A stretch of DNA of 64,000 bases from Holophagae bacterium (GTDB taxonomy: Bacteria; Acidobacteriota; Holophagae; Acanthopleuribacterales; Acanthopleuribacteraceae). Position 1 is the first letter of the stretch; each line of letters starts with the position of its first letter. Positions 1 to 5,359 of the stretch are shown piece after piece. Position numbers and translations under genes: made by a program. The notes beneath the pieces were generated by a model that made no database searches, was not told the DNA's origin, and saw only the letters and a list, made by a program, of their open reading frames with translations. The stretch is from the NCBI GenBank assembly GCA_029263455.1, contig JAJCXM010000014.1:186001-250000 (forward strand), read 5' to 3'.

Positions 1-563
1 CGGTCTCGCTGGGTGTATCGGGTACGTGTTCGGACGCGAATTGCGTAGGCTCCTCCCCACAATTCCTCGCCGCGCAAATTGACGCGCAGCCCTGGTTGTT
101 TGAAGCCACGCTCGTTGCCCGAGTCGTCAGTGAATTGGTAATACTGTAGCGAAACCGATCCGCGTACGGGGCTTCGTTTAACGGATTTGGCTGTTCGAGG
201 TTTTCGTTCTTTGCTTACGTTGACGGTATTTTCGGCAGGTTCAGAGGGCACCGACGGTTCGACTCGTTTTCTGAGGTAGCACCAATCGCCAAGTTGTAGT
301 GCTTGAGTGTCAGTTTCCAATTTACAAGATGCCCGATTTTCAGCAACAGAGACAACCACCAGATTGGCGAGCCATTGTCCATCGCGATAAAACGCAAACT
401 GATCGCCCACCGAAACGCCATTGGCCGAACCCGCATCTACATAAACGAGATCAGCACTGAGATAAGTTACTGTGGCGTCGGGTTTTGGACCTGGGTTCTG
501 ACAAAGCACCCAAGCGCTTGAAAAGAGGGAAACAAACAGCGCGGTTGTTAGCTTAGCGTTCAT
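1..563 (-). CDS. exported protein of the cytochrome cassette, possible outer-membrane barrel (partial, runs off left edge)
   Basis: I do not recognise a named family. The frame stays open for about 187 codons to the window edge, so the C-terminus is missing. The start is an ATG with GGAG six bases upstream, and it overlaps the stop of the 28-haem cytochrome by 11 bases, so translation is probably coupled. Residues 1-21 form a signal peptide (hydrophobic core, then a Ser-Ala-Trp-Val-Leu-Cys-Gln stretch). Residues 35-95 resemble a small all-beta domain of the kind found in secretion and flagellar accessory proteins, with a G-x-x-x-G-V-x-V-G-D turn. A basic Pro/Ser linker follows, then alternating polar/hydrophobic strands (SVSLQYYQF, then GLRVNLRGEELWGG and AYAIRVRTRTRY) typical of the start of an outer-membrane barrel. 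As the last cassette gene it could be the porin through which electrons cross the outer membrane; that is inference. Confidence 0.7.
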   Translation of the reverse strand, partial: MNAKLTTALFVSLFSSAWVLCQNPGPKPDATVTYLSADLVYVDAGSANGVSVGDQFAFYRDGQWLANLVVVSVAENRASCKLETDTQALQLGDWCYLRKRVEPSVPSEPAENTVNVSKERKPRTAKSVKRSPVRGSVSLQYYQFTDDSGNERGFKQPGLRVNLRGEELWGGAYAIRVRTRTRYTQRD

Positions 564-2646
564 CTTCTTCTCCGTTGGGGTGGCAGGCATAACACGCCAT
601 TGATTCGTACACGTAGCCGTTGACCTCGTCGTGTTCGTCGTCCATGTCACTGCGTGGGTGGGCATGACAATCGATGCACGAGAACTGTTCGAAGTTGTTC
701 GGGTTCACATGACAATCGGCACATGTATCCCATTCGTTGCGATGTTGGCCAGAATAGATAGGAAACATGTGATTGAAATTCGCATCGTTCCAATCAGCGG
801 TGTTGTGGCAATCTTCGCAGGTGGTGGGGAACTGAGCCGCTAGGTGATTGGGGTCAATTGCGTTGGTGTAATCAATCTGGTGGCAGGCAACACAGTCAGT
901 GGGCGTGTTGGCGTATCCCTGGGAATGGCAATCCAAACAATCCAAGGGCGCGTGGGCACCGGCTAGTGGGAACTGGGTCTGATTGTGATCGAAGGTGGCC
1001 GGCGACCAAGCGTTGGTCGAGTGGCACAAAGTACAGTCCGTGCTGAATTGGTTGCTCACATGGTTGGGATCTGGCACTTGATTGTAGTCAGTTTGATGGC
1101 ACGCTAAACAATCGGTGGGTGTATTGCTGTAACCCTGGGAGTGGCAGTCCAAGCAATCCAACGGCGCGTGGGCGCCGGCAAGTGGGAACTGGGTCTGATT
1201 GTGATCGAAGGTGGCCGGTGACCAAGCGTTAGTGGTGTGGCACAAGGTACAGTCCGTGCTGAACTGGTTGCTCACATGGTTGGGATCTGGCACTTGATCG
1301 TAGTCAGTTTGGTGGCACGCAATACAGTCAGTGGGTGTGTTGGTATAACCCTGGGAATGACAGTCCAGACAATCCAACGGCGCGTGGGCACCGGCAAGTG
1401 GGAACTGAGTCTGGTTGTGATCAAACGTGGCCGGTGACCAAGCGTTGATCGTGTGGCACAAAGTGCAATCCATGCTGAACTGACTGGCCACATGGTTGGG
1501 ATCTGGCACTTGATCGTAGTCAGTTTGGTGGCACGCAATACAGTCGGTGGGTGTGTTGGTGTATCCCTCGGAATGGCAATCCAGACAATCCAAGGGCGCG
1601 TGGGCGCCGGCAAGTGGGAACTGAGTCTGATTGTGATCGAACGTGGCCGGTGACCAAGCGTTGGTGGTGTGGCACAAAGTGCAATCCGTGCTGAATTGAC
1701 TGGCCACATGGTTGGGATCTGGCACTTGATCGTAGTCAGTTTGGTGGCACGCAATACAGTCAGTGGGTGTGTTGGTATAACCCTGAGAATGGCAGTCCAA
1801 ACAATCCAACGGAACGTGCGCTCCAGCAAGTGGGAACTGGGTCTGGTTGTGATCAAACGTAGCCGGTGACCAAGCGCTAATCGTATGGCAGGCCTGACAA
1901 TCGGTGCTAAATTGGTTGGTCGCGTGGTTGGGATTGACCGTTGCTTGATAATCAGTCAGGTGGCAGGACACACAATCGGTTGGCGTCCCTTGAAATCCAT
2001 TCTCATGGCATGCCTGGCAATCCTGAACCGCATGGCCCTGGACTAATGGGAAACTTGCAGGATGCTGAAATCTGGCTGGAGCCCAGTCGGCGGCTGTAAC
2101 ATCGTGGCAGGGCACACAATCAGTCGAAAATCCGGCAAGTACGTGATTAGGGTTGGTGGTCAAATCGAAATCAGACAGGTGACACGCCTGACAGTCATTG
2201 GACGTAAATGAAAATTCATGGCGGGTCTGTTGATCATGACAGGCTTCGCAGTCCAATCGCGCGTGTTCTCCCAGTAAGGGAAACAATGTTTGCTGGTGAC
2301 GCTGGATCATGTTCATGCGCACTTCCCAGACCGTATCCACGTGACAAGATTCGCAATCCTCACCAAACCGTGCTTGGTGAATGTCGGTGTGGCAACTTGC
2401 ACATTGGGGTTCCGCTTCTTCGAAAACAAGCGATTGGTGGCAGGCTTTACACGAAGCCTGACGGTGCGCTGCCATGAGCTTGAAAGACGTCTGTTGGTGA
2501 TCGAACGCAGGTGGATCCTGAAGATTTATCCAGTCTTGAGTGGTATGGCATTGTTCGCAAGTAATCGCCAGCTCTCCGTGTGGCGATGATTGACCTAAGG
2601 CCAACAATCCCAGAAATAATGTCAACGCGGTCACCGTATGTTTCAT
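553..2646 (-). CDS. giant periplasmic/extracellular multihaem c-type cytochrome (28 CxxCH motifs)
   Basis: The 697-residue product starts with a Sec signal peptide (about residues 1-20) and by my count carries 28 CxxCH haem c attachment motifs. Most of the middle is a tandem 72-residue unit with three CxxCH motifs each; five units are nearly identical and more diverged ones flank them. Each unit contains an F-D-H-x-x-T-x-F-P-L-x-G-x-H segment whose histidines are likely distal haem ligands. This F-x-H...FPL-x-G-x-H...CxxCH layout is familiar from multihaem cytochromes of metal-reducing bacteria. The ATG overlaps the stop of the preceding cytochrome gene (ATGA), with a GGGGGG ribosome-binding site. 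There is no membrane anchor, so it should be soluble in the periplasm or exposed outside. The likely role is a long-range electron wire or capacitor between the membrane cytochrome and the outer-membrane partner. The electron acceptor is unknown. Confidence 0.9.
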   Translation of the reverse strand: MKHTVTALTLFLGLLALGQSSPHGELAITCEQCHTTQDWINLQDPPAFDHQQTSFKLMAAHRQASCKACHQSLVFEEAEPQCASCHTDIHQARFGEDCESCHVDTVWEVRMNMIQRHQQTLFPLLGEHARLDCEACHDQQTRHEFSFTSNDCQACHLSDFDLTTNPNHVLAGFSTDCVPCHDVTAADWAPARFQHPASFPLVQGHAVQDCQACHENGFQGTPTDCVSCHLTDYQATVNPNHATNQFSTDCQACHTISAWSPATFDHNQTQFPLAGAHVPLDCLDCHSQGYTNTPTDCIACHQTDYDQVPDPNHVASQFSTDCTLCHTTNAWSPATFDHNQTQFPLAGAHAPLDCLDCHSEGYTNTPTDCIACHQTDYDQVPDPNHVASQFSMDCTLCHTINAWSPATFDHNQTQFPLAGAHAPLDCLDCHSQGYTNTPTDCIACHQTDYDQVPDPNHVSNQFSTDCTLCHTTNAWSPATFDHNQTQFPLAGAHAPLDCLDCHSQGYSNTPTDCLACHQTDYNQVPDPNHVSNQFSTDCTLCHSTNAWSPATFDHNQTQFPLAGAHAPLDCLDCHSQGYANTPTDCVACHQIDYTNAIDPNHLAAQFPTTCEDCHNTADWNDANFNHMFPIYSGQHRNEWDTCADCHVNPNNFEQFSCIDCHAHPRSDMDDEHDEVNGYVYESMACYACHPNGEEDER
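835..1914 (-). repeat. five tandem 216-bp units within the 28-haem cytochrome gene
   Basis: Five 216-bp units (72 codons) lie head to tail: 1914-1699, 1698-1483, 1482-1267, 1266-1051 and 1050-835 on the minus strand. They are almost identical in DNA, including synonymous positions, apart from scattered substitutions. Each encodes three CxxCH motifs. Diverged copies flank the array on both sides. Such identity points to recent duplication or gene conversion. Confidence 0.93.
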
Positions 2647-4493
2647 TGATTCCCCCCGGCCGAGTCATGGCAGGTCTCGCATCTGATGTCTATTGGCGTG
2701 TACCTTGTGAAAGTGCCAAGTGAATCTTGTTGTGATGGGTGACATTGATTACAAGCAACGTCAATATGAGCACCTTCAAGGTTGAAACGACTGTCGTGTT
2801 GGTGGTCAAAAACCAACGCATCCCATTGAGTGGATTGATGGCAACTGGCGCATTGATTTTCGGCCCGAGCAGCGAATTGCGATCGGTGGGGATCGGAATG
2901 GCACGAGCTACAGTTTGAATCGACGGACGTGAACACCTTGGACTCTGGGTCGGTAAAGACATGGCAGTCTGAGCAACGAGCCTTCTGGTGTTCGCCTTCC
3001 AGCGGGAATGAAGTGAGTTTGTGATCAAAAATGGAGTTCCGCCAGGATGTATCCTGATGGCAACCTTCGCAGCCTAGCTGGACCAGAGTGGGGTATTGTT
3101 GGCTGTCATGGGGATCTACATGACAGGCGTCGCAGGTTTGCTGCTCGAAGCGGAATTTCTGAGTCTGAACTCCGAGAATCGGTTGTGTTGTGTGGCACTG
3201 AACGCAAGGTGTGGCAAGGTGTGCACCCTTGAGCGGGAATCGGCACTCAGCGTGGTCGTTTACGCCAAATTGGGCGGGCAAAAAGCCCTCCACTTGATGG
3301 CACTCGCCGCATTCTCCTTGTGAAGGGCGATGTTTAAATTGGCCAATATGCGAATCGGAATGGCAATCATTGCAGTGCATGAATGCAATGGTGTGATTGA
3401 CTTTGTTTTCTGAATGGCACAATCGACATGCAACATCAATGTGTTTTCCCTTCAAGGGGTAGCGGGTTTTCGCGTGATCGAAGGCTTTCATTTGATCCTG
3501 CCACCCCGACGTTTGATGACAGTCTTCGCATCGCGCCCCCAACCTGCTCTGATGGGGATCGCGATGACAATCTGAACATACCTGGTGTTGAATGTTTGCA
3601 TAACGCACGTACGTAACTGATCGGTTGTTCGAACGGATTAATGTGTGGCATCCCTCACATTCGACCAGTTTGTGTTTCCCTGTTAAGGGGAACGACGCTT
3701 GCTGATGATCAAACTGTGAAGCGGGTTTGAAGTGATTTTCAACGTGGCAGGTTACGCAATCCTGCTTAAATTGGCCGAAGTGGGTGTCATCTGCATGGCA
3801 ATCAGTACAATCATCATGGGCTATCGGTTTGAAGCGACGAAAGGGTTCGGGCTCGGATTCAAGTGCATGGCATTGCTCACAACTTACATCGCGGTGGGCG
3901 CCCTTGAGCGAAAACGCTGCTTTTTGATGATCGAACAAGGCTGCGGGCTTCCAAGAATCTTCGCGGTGACAGCTCATGCAGTCTTTTCCAAATTGCTCGC
4001 GGTGAGGATCTACGTGGCAAGAGGCACAGGTGGCAGCCAGTCCGAGAAAGGTACGCTCCAGATCTTTGCCCACCGCTTTAAGGAGCTCGGGCTTTGCCAT
4101 AGACTTGGCATTATGACAATCGCGGCATGCGGCCTTTGCGTGAGTTCCTTTGAGTGTGAAGCCAGTTAATGAGTGATCAAACTTTTCGGTTCCATTCGGC
4201 CAATGGACCATCTCAAATGTACGTCCATGATGATCACTATGACAGGTTTCACACGTTGAATAGGCCGCTTGCGCGTGGAGCCCTAAACCTTGCTCAATTC
4301 GATCCTTGACCAGTGCGTGGCAACTAAGGCACTGACTACGGAACTCCTTGGTGCCTATCTCGTGGCAGCGAACACATTGAGCAACACCTTCTAGATGCTC
4401 ATGTTTTTGGTGTAAATCACCAGGTGACAACTGACCCAAGACGGACGATGTGAGTATGAAAACACATGACAAGATAAGGGTCCGGGAAATCAA
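2643..4493 (-). CDS. large multihaem c-type cytochrome (23 CxxCH motifs)
   Basis: The 616-residue product has an N-terminal signal peptide (about residues 1-20) and, by my count, 23 CxxCH motifs spread over its whole length. Recurrent F-D-H...F-x-L-x-G-x-H segments precede many haem sites and supply candidate distal histidines. Unlike the next gene its repeats are diverged, so it looks older. The start is a TTG whose last two bases and the next base form the TGA stop of the upstream membrane protein (TTGA overlap); its own stop overlaps the ATG of the 28-haem gene. It is probably the periplasmic link that takes electrons from the membrane b-type protein and passes them on. No catalytic domain (nitrite, hydroxylamine or tetrathionate reductase type) is evident, so I read it as a carrier rather than an enzyme. 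Confidence 0.9.
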   Translation of the reverse strand: MISRTLILSCVFILTSSVLGQLSPGDLHQKHEHLEGVAQCVRCHEIGTKEFRSQCLSCHALVKDRIEQGLGLHAQAAYSTCETCHSDHHGRTFEMVHWPNGTEKFDHSLTGFTLKGTHAKAACRDCHNAKSMAKPELLKAVGKDLERTFLGLAATCASCHVDPHREQFGKDCMSCHREDSWKPAALFDHQKAAFSLKGAHRDVSCEQCHALESEPEPFRRFKPIAHDDCTDCHADDTHFGQFKQDCVTCHVENHFKPASQFDHQQASFPLTGKHKLVECEGCHTLIRSNNRSVTYVRYANIQHQVCSDCHRDPHQSRLGARCEDCHQTSGWQDQMKAFDHAKTRYPLKGKHIDVACRLCHSENKVNHTIAFMHCNDCHSDSHIGQFKHRPSQGECGECHQVEGFLPAQFGVNDHAECRFPLKGAHLATPCVQCHTTQPILGVQTQKFRFEQQTCDACHVDPHDSQQYPTLVQLGCEGCHQDTSWRNSIFDHKLTSFPLEGEHQKARCSDCHVFTDPESKVFTSVDSNCSSCHSDPHRSQFAARAENQCASCHQSTQWDALVFDHQHDSRFNLEGAHIDVACNQCHPSQQDSLGTFTRYTPIDIRCETCHDSAGGNQ

Positions 4494-5359
4494 TTAGATC
4501 TCCATGCAATGCCAAAGGCAAGCGCAACAGCGATGTGCACCAACATCACCACATACATGACCGTGGCAAAGGGTCGATGAAACACGTGCCAGTGGTGAAA
4601 AAGCGATTGAACGGTGCGTAAGGTTGCCACACGACGGTTGAGAATCGCGTAGTCGCGAGCTGATTCAAGCACGGCAAGACATTCAGCTTGTGGGAAACCT
4701 AACTGTTCCAAGTGGCGTTTGGTTTTGCGTAGTCGACTCGATCGCGTCAAAGCATGCGCAGCCAACCAAAAGAGAAAAGCCAGTTGGTTTCCGGGAGCTT
4801 GAGTGCCGGTGATTAGTTTGAGCAGATCGTTCAGTGTTTTTTCGTCAAGTCGATGCTTGAGCGGCTCTAGCTTCTCTTGAAGCTGAGCACTCAGCTCGTC
4901 CAGGTCATAAGCTTCTCCGCTTAGGTTTCGTGGAATCTGGATGTAGAGATAGCGTCCGAAAACACCGCTCAGCGCAACGGCGACCATCGACCAGAAACTC
5001 ACGGCCACAAGTCCTGTCAATTTAAACGAGGTGTGCAGGACCACGAGTAACGAACCGATGATGCCAAAAAATATATGCACGTCTAGCCACGTTTTTAGAC
5101 GGCCGCTTTTCCCTATTAAGCGAGTGCGTTTACGCAAGCTATACGTCAACATGGCCACCAACATGCTGGCACCCAGGATCCCGTACCGCAAGCCCCAGTC
5201 TCCAGCGGGCCTGAGAAGTCGATAGTCCGTGTGATGCGGCCGCGCGCTAAATGGGGTTAGGTAGTAATCTAGTCCACGGGCAAACGCAAAAACGATGGCC
5301 GTCAAAAAAACGAGATAGAGCACTATGATGGGTATTGATAATCGACGTGTAGATGCCAC
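4490..5359 (-). CDS. b-type cytochrome-like integral membrane protein
   Basis: The 289-residue protein has about five transmembrane segments (near 8-30, 54-74, 92-112, 116-140 and 262-285) and a helical cytoplasmic insert of roughly 110 residues. Histidines cluster where haem b ligands would be expected: H95 and H109 in the third segment, then H255, H256, H258 and H261 just before H275 in the last. This resembles di-haem cytochrome b or ferric-reductase-like proteins, though I cannot assign a named family. It is the first gene of the cassette and the downstream 23-haem cytochrome gene starts inside its stop codon. The likely role is to oxidise menaquinol and pass electrons to the periplasmic cytochromes (inference from context). 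The start is GTG, with a GAGG ribosome-binding site seven bases upstream; an ATG 13 bases further up is out of frame. Confidence 0.75.
   Translation of the reverse strand: MASTRRLSIPIIVLYLVFLTAIVFAFARGLDYYLTPFSARPHHTDYRLLRPAGDWGLRYGILGASMLVAMLTYSLRKRTRLIGKSGRLKTWLDVHIFFGIIGSLLVVLHTSFKLTGLVAVSFWSMVAVALSGVFGRYLYIQIPRNLSGEAYDLDELSAQLQEKLEPLKHRLDEKTLNDLLKLITGTQAPGNQLAFLFWLAAHALTRSSRLRKTKRHLEQLGFPQAECLAVLESARDYAILNRRVATLRTVQSLFHHWHVFHRPFATVMYVVMLVHIAVALAFGIAWRSN

Follow-up and report, generated by a model that had tools for sequence, protein, structure and literature searches.

A candidate flavoprotein-fed electron conduit across the cell envelope, encoded by a conserved gene set in a Holophagae bacterium

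Gene content and organization of the locus

A set of genes that may encode a conduit for electrons across the cell envelope was found at the left end of a 64,000-nucleotide window from a Holophagae bacterium (GenBank assembly GCA_029263455.1; 6.2 Mb, 95% complete), the window being bases 186001-250000 of contig 14 (JAJCXM010000014.1). All the genes lie on the reverse strand. The one furthest upstream encodes a b-type inner-membrane protein (IMP) of 289 amino acids (positions 4490..5359). It is followed by two c-type cytochromes with signal peptides, namely C1 with 616 amino acids and 23 CxxCH motifs (2643..4493) and C2 with 697 amino acids and 28 CxxCH motifs (553..2646), the latter containing a 216-bp tandem repeat in 4.7 copies (878..1890; 72 amino acids and three haems per copy). 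The 5' part of a gene for an exported protein, with its ATG at 563, occupies positions 1..563. The overlaps between these genes are TTGA (b protein and C1), ATGA (C1 and C2) and 11 bases (C2 and the exported protein), and all four genes and their overlaps are exactly as described in the first-pass annotation, which was made from the letters of the window.

That annotation counted a cassette of four genes, whereas the contig beyond the left edge of the window adds two more. In the extended locus (L002, where window position N corresponds to 14000+N), the exported gene is completed at L002:12959-14563 and encodes 534 amino acids. A gene for a flavoprotein with ferredoxin and FAD domains (Fd-FAD, 440 amino acids; L002:11624-12946) starts 12 bases past its stop codon, the start being preceded by AGGGGGA. 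The next gene (L002:10995-11627) overlaps the Fd-FAD gene by 4 bases and encodes a 210-amino-acid protein of zinc-ribbon/transmembrane/TPR architecture. The operon is therefore made up of six genes, five of which form the core (b, C1, C2, barrel and Fd-FAD). In both size and distribution, the cassette goes beyond what the window alone shows. The TPR gene was rejected as a core member, as a strong homologue was found in the sister genome only. The set had also been placed behind one promoter; a sigma-70 consensus scan of the coding strand gave no match.

The b-type inner-membrane protein

The b protein contains no CxxCH motif and has five predicted transmembrane helices. Its paired histidines, already noted in the first reading of the sequence, are real: H95/H109 and H261/H275, each spaced as HX13H, were found to be invariant in all 66 sequences aligned, as was H258. 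The motif positions in the host protein are W91/H95/H109, S131-G135 (SGxxG) and W257/H261/H275. Both HX13H pairs and SGxxG occur in 66 of the 66 sequences, and the longer signature WX3HX13H is present twice in 58 of them. The AlphaFold2 model (predicted local distance difference test score, pLDDT, 92) contains long helices at residues 4-34, 54-78, 88-109, 117-140 and 224-288, and the histidine pairs map to the third and fifth of these (88-109 and 224-288), an arrangement compatible with two stacked b haems.

For the host member, Pfam and NCBIfam gave no assignment, and DUF4405 was matched weakly by 16 of 65 members of the family. The PDB, searched by sequence and by profile, yielded nothing meaningful, and Foldseek with the model returned no match under E 0.001. 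Other members of the b superfamily adjoin NAD(P)H-type flavoproteins and multihaem cytochromes. In Alteromonas and Pontibacter, the gene stands beside those for a 2Fe-2S ferredoxin reductase and a 7-haem cytochrome; in Sphingobium, its neighbours encode an FAD/CNB/4Fe-4S fusion and a 10-haem protein. On an Alteromonas macleodii plasmid (L095:5974-9457), the triad of FNR-type flavoprotein, b-type protein and 7-haem cytochrome adjoins a [NiFe] hydrogenase operon; a Pontibacter plasmid (L096) carries the same triad without a hydrogenase.

Haem content of the two cytochromes

The CxxCH counts of C1 and C2 are not due to chance, since 2000 shuffles of each cytochrome gave a mean of 0.3-0.4 motifs and at most 5. 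Haems are packed at one per 26.8 amino acids in C1 and one per 24.9 in C2, and the histidines beyond those in CxxCH (34 and 31 respectively) are enough for bis-histidine ligation of all haems. The description of the cassette as a 51-haem conduit holds for the c-type haems, whereas the b protein probably contributes two more.

The two cytochromes differ in how their haem number varies among the loci that we collected. Among 71 complete C1 rows, 55 have 20 haems and 11 have 23, the rest having 15, 17, 18 or 26, and an Emticicia homologue with 37% identity retains all 23 CxxCH motifs of the host protein. When the largest C2 of each locus is taken, its haem count leaves a remainder of 1 on division by 3 at 43 of 52 loci (13, 16, 19, 22, 25, 28 and so on to 85), for which the binomial p of about 3e-13 assumes an independence that these loci do not have. 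A haem spacing of 15-25-32 recurs along C2, so that one 216-bp repeat amounts to three haems, and it is through this tandem repeat that the length of C2 shifts in three-haem steps. The homologue with the most CxxCH motifs has 85 in 2140 amino acids (L084), followed by two with 73 (L025) and 67 (L026). The near-fixed haem number of C1 and the variable, triplet-stepped number of C2 suggest that the length of C1 is constrained, as would be expected of a wire crossing a periplasm of constant width, and that the length of C2 is not. C1 is accordingly proposed as a periplasmic wire, a placement suggested by its signal peptide, and C2 as an outer or extracellular wire of variable length.

In six loci of Acidobacteriota (L148, L149, L150, L151, L153 and L155), C1 and C2 are apparently fused behind the b protein into one cytochrome of up to 53 haems. 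Most of the genomes concerned have no Fd-FAD gene; one (G097, with locus L150) has it on another contig.

The exported barrel protein

Completion of the exported gene, which the first-pass annotation had seen as a possible barrel protein cut off at the window edge, gave a protein with a signal sequence and the C-terminus AEFGYRF. Its AlphaFold2 model, built with 47 sequences (pLDDT 86), has a signal helix, a small N-terminal beta domain (residues 30-98) and then 22 strands. Foldseek with the model gave, as its top 50 matches, beta-barrel proteins of the outer membrane, among them AlgE, OccAB and FimD. The model thus supports the barrel fold class and not a precise family. Scans with the general Pfam and NCBIfam libraries, in which no OmbB-specific model was run, gave no assignment, and sequence and profile searches of the PDB gave nothing meaningful.

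The Fd-FAD flavoprotein

The Fd-FAD protein consists of one N-terminal transmembrane helix, a ferredoxin domain with two Fe-S clusters, and domains for the binding of FAD and NAD(P) that resemble those of YpdA and thioredoxin reductase. The residues RSIGKQR directly after the helix are basic and, by the positive-inside rule, place the catalytic domain in the cytosol. Within residues 61-102, the second cluster site of the ferredoxin domain has the motif CxxHxxCxxxCP with a histidine that is invariant in 47 of 47 sequences, and may hold a His-ligated [4Fe-4S] or a [3Fe-4S] cluster; in the first, the second cysteine is replaced by serine, threonine or valine in 30 of the 47. With flavoproteins similar to YpdA and thioredoxin reductase, the protein shares the FAD and NAD(P)H folds, but only Fd-FAD has the membrane helix and the two-cluster domain with its invariant histidine. 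An identity as YpdA bacillithiol disulfide reductase was rejected, the score of 174.7 bits with the YpdA model being far under the cut-off of 339.9.

The association of Fd-FAD with the b protein was surveyed in 396 genomes of Acidobacteriota (b at E <= 1e-40, Fd-FAD at E <= 1e-100). The b protein was found in 40 genomes and Fd-FAD in 29, and all 29 Fd-FAD genomes also encode the b protein, with the two genes close together on one contig in 23 of them. The Fd-FAD-less loci examined contain either a 24-haem C1 or an apparent single fusion of C1 and C2, as described above, and their b proteins cluster together (10 rows, SH-aLRT 98) in a b-protein tree, a quick tree with Shimodaira-Hasegawa-like approximate likelihood ratio (SH-aLRT) support only.

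Conservation and distribution

When 84,980 species genomes were scanned with the b alignment, relatives turned up at 428 loci, of which the best 80 were kept (E-values are relative to the candidate stretches). By their record titles, these 80 belong to Calditrichota, Zixibacteria, Ignavibacteria, Bacteroidota and Electryoneota, with one Chlorobiota and one acidobacterium; isolates among them include Draconibacterium sediminis and D. mangrovi. All five core genes are present in 50 of the 81 loci counted and nearly all the others stop at the end of a contig or locus, L022 being the clear exception. Two gene orders are common: b-C1-C2-barrel-FAD, the arrangement in the host, in 17 loci and b-FAD-C1-C2-barrel, mainly in Bacteroidota, in 27. 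The adjacency of the genes in several phyla thus answers the question of co-occurrence raised in the earlier reading. The closest named relative at the locus is Acidobacteria bacterium isolate HKST-UBA04 (L013), with a b protein 60% identical to that of the host. A complete conduit set was also observed beside a ccsA cytochrome-maturation gene on plasmid pEMTOL02 of Emticicia oligotrophica (L007), Emticicia being described as an aerobe.

Within its class, a b protein of the host type was found in the host genus only (2 of 93 genomes). In the b tree it groups with Calditrichota, Zixibacteria, an Ignavibacterium and four other families of Acidobacteriota (24 rows, SH-aLRT 97), apart from the remaining b proteins of Acidobacteriota. 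Given this placement and the restriction to one genus, horizontal acquisition of the cassette by the host would be the simplest reading.

Comparison with known systems

The closest published counterpart is PCC3, a four-gene porin-cytochrome system defined in Proteobacteria and predicted in iron oxidizers by He et al. in 2017 (PMC5566968), whose function is stated in the literature to be unverified. The PCC3 IMP has about 300 amino acids, five helices, two WX3HX13H motifs (in TM3 and TM5) and SGxxG (in TM4) (PMC5566968), and the b protein has this size, these five helices and all of these motifs. The PCC3 periplasmic cytochrome has a median of 21 haems (PMC5566968), with 21, 24 or 27 in Gallionellaceae (PMC10734462). 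C1 with its 23 haems falls within this range of 21-27, although its family mostly has 20 or 23 rather than the values seen in Gallionellaceae; the Acidobacteriota relatives with a 24-haem C1 and without Fd-FAD fit PCC3 better than the host cassette does. The second, larger cytochrome of PCC3 is extracellular, with a median of 34 and up to 85 haems (PMC5566968), and resembles C2 in its repeats and its low number of amino acids per haem. The host C2, which has a signal peptide, contains 28 haems, and the C2 maximum of 85 motifs in L084 equals the highest count reported for PCC3 in 2017. In both systems a barrel gene is adjacent, although PCC3 porins have up to 42 predicted strands compared to 22 here. 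Two further differences were observed: the published four-gene set has no flavoprotein whereas Fd-FAD is a fifth conserved gene here, and the hosts are Proteobacteria in one case and Acidobacteriota and phyla of the Fibrobacterota-Chlorobiota-Bacteroidota (FCB) group in the other. Judged against the published description of Proteobacterial PCC3, the cassette probably works like PCC3, as a flavoprotein-coupled variant for which membership is not claimed.

PCC4 (PMC5566968) has an IMP with the same histidine signature and, in subgroup II, an Fe-S protein beside it, but its three cytochromes are all periplasmic, in contrast to the two large cytochromes here. Two sister genera of the host have distant b proteins within PCC4-like clusters (L011:2975-13450 and L012), which contain genes for a 5-haem protein, a barrel, an 8-haem protein, a CRP/Fe-S protein, the b-type IMP, a 10-haem protein and an FHA protein.

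The general plan of multihaem cytochromes with an outer-membrane barrel, and the general task, are common to MtrCAB, MtoAB and OmbB-OmaB-OmcB. Membership of the MtrCAB type was nevertheless rejected: NCBIfam scans gave no MtrB/PioB, MtrA/DmsE or OmcA/MtrC assignment in the cassette and no match for the barrel, and C1 and C2 scored 36.7 and 29.7 with TIGR03508 (cut-off 192.2). A CymA/NrfH quinol oxidase was likewise rejected for the b protein, which has no CxxCH and no NapC/NirT match; the inner-membrane part of MtrCAB-type systems is a c-type CymA/NrfH protein instead of a b-type one. Family searches found no match to a characterized reductase complex. Clusters of Burkholderiales with 24- and 49-haem cytochromes and a porin, described as an OmbB-like PCC (Arbour et al. 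2020, PMC7399161), also have two dense cytochromes before the porin, the larger of which varies in haem number; the parts of that paper available to us report no flavoprotein or b-type IMP.

The cassette had also been regarded as separately assembled, whereas the module that it represents is conserved and related to PCC3. Our literature searches on PCC3 and porin-cytochrome systems in Bacteroidota found no paper, and those on Prolixibacter corrosion, Draconibacterium and Acanthopleuribacter found no description of the cassette. The five-gene set with a flavoprotein, occurring in several phyla, appears to have no experimental precedent.

Proposed electron path and alternatives

We propose, with a probability of roughly 0.58, that the cassette is a PCC3-like trans-envelope electron conduit fed by the flavoprotein, with a net outward flow that bypasses the quinone pool. 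The conduit idea itself, put forward in the first-pass annotation, is supported by the predicted barrel with its signal sequence, the adjacency of the genes across phyla and the lack of a match to any characterized reductase complex. In this proposal, NAD(P)H or reduced ferredoxin would deliver electrons to the FAD and Fe-S clusters of Fd-FAD on the cytosolic side, from where they would pass to a cytosolic b haem (H95/H261) and a periplasmic b haem (H109/H275). C1, whose 20-23 haems would suit a periplasm-spanning wire, would take them to C2 at the barrel, and C2 would pass them to a mineral, humic, electrode-like or cellular acceptor outside. NAD(P)H or ferredoxin is favoured over quinol as the donor because Fd-FAD occurs only with the b protein and because other members of the b superfamily neighbour NAD(P)H-type flavoproteins.

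Several points weigh against this proposal. The direct evidence consists of sequence, synteny, co-occurrence and predicted fold, from which we infer the donor, the direction, the localization of C2 and the substrate. The case for NAD(P)H rests on domain similarity. C2, with its putative place outside the cell or within the barrel, has no lipobox. The Foldseek matches of the barrel have low template modelling scores (0.2-0.5), and the predicted 22 strands are fewer than the 26 of MtrB. The association between b and Fd-FAD has a Fisher p of 2.7e-35, a value that ignores shared ancestry. Finally, 11 of the surveyed Acidobacteriota genomes have the b protein and no Fd-FAD gene anywhere, and the existence of a b-C1-C2-barrel clade lacking it genome-wide indicates that some versions of the conduit do without the flavoprotein.

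These Fd-FAD-less relatives bear on a quinol-linked version of the same conduit, in which the b protein would oxidize menaquinol and reduce C1, and the flavoprotein would have a side role or feed quinone. They show that the b protein can function without this flavoprotein, its two putative stacked haems with HX13H resemble those of quinone-active cytochromes b, and quinone exchange was proposed for PCC3 by its authors (PMC5566968). However, Pfam and NCBIfam scans recognized no quinol site or known quinol-oxidase family in the b protein, and Fd-FAD is strictly tied to it in the FAD-bearing lineages. We therefore consider quinol input, including the quinol-to-surface route suggested earlier, unlikely. 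An inward conduit appears more doubtful again. In it, Fe(II), minerals or a different cell would supply electrons to oxidases or, by way of the flavoprotein, to NAD(P)+ or ferredoxin. Several haem-copper-oxidase-family proteins and an alternative-complex-III-like cluster in the host would suit such a flow, as would the description of Emticicia as an aerobe. PCC3 has moreover been found in Fe(II) oxidizers (PMC5566968, PMC10734462). Against this, reduction of NAD(P)+ with electrons from Fe(II) would be strongly endergonic, and no site for energy coupling could be seen. Nor are the sampled hosts collectively known as iron oxidizers. The most improbable of these alternatives places the whole system inside the cell envelope, where it would store electrons in the periplasm or act as a redox sink serving other reductases there, and the barrel would be incidental. 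Long c-type cytochromes can hold charge and localization here is predicted, but the barrel gene stays beside the cytochromes across phyla, and a fixed C1 with a C2 of free length better fits a spanning wire joined to an outer one.

Beyond the host, the outward, flavoprotein-fed reading can be extended, tentatively and with less confidence than for the cassette itself, to a widespread mode of extracellular electron transfer that would be shared by Bacteroidota, Ignavibacteria, Calditrichota, Zixibacteria, Electryoneota and Acidobacteriota. In such a mode, cytosolic NAD(P)H or ferredoxin would be directly oxidized by an anchored flavoprotein and the electrons passed through a two-haem b protein, a C1 of fixed length and a C2 that lengthens and shortens in three-haem steps, up to 85 haems, bypassing quinone. 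If this is true, outer-membrane electron transfer would extend to many species of phyla regarded mostly as degraders or fermenters, and the Fd-FAD gene would be a specific marker of conduits with NAD(P)H or ferredoxin as donor. The idea is testable as cultured hosts exist (Draconibacterium sediminis, D. mangrovi and Emticicia oligotrophica), and the near-constant haem number of C1 beside the triplet-stepped number of C2 makes the periplasm-spanning wire a measurable prediction.

Other electron routes in the host

The host had been described as otherwise resembling a heterotroph. This view was not supported, as a second candidate electron conduit was found on contig C23 (C23:70552-77521; L171:1052-8021). 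The cluster encodes a decahaem protein of the OmcA/MtrC family, which scored 483 bits with TIGR03507 (cut-off 209), and a decahaem protein similar to MtrA/DmsE, whose 185 bits fall slightly below the cut-off of 192. It also encodes a 644-amino-acid exported protein with no family match that may be a porin, a cytochrome with a single haem and a protein of the NapC/NirT type with six haems. A search of the host genome for the MtrB family gave no match and is uninformative, as the control genomes were likewise silent. The OmcA/MtrC and MtrA-like set makes extracellular electron transfer plausible in the host, which may have two separate extracellular electron routes. The cluster lies 1 kb downstream of the alternative-complex-III-like cluster and, with five COX1-family matches in the genome, the host probably respires oxygen.

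Finally, a gene for a 695-amino-acid membrane protein with four CxxCH motifs and a partner gene encoding 578 amino acids were found on contig 14, some 14 kb past where the operon ends (L105:6735-8822).

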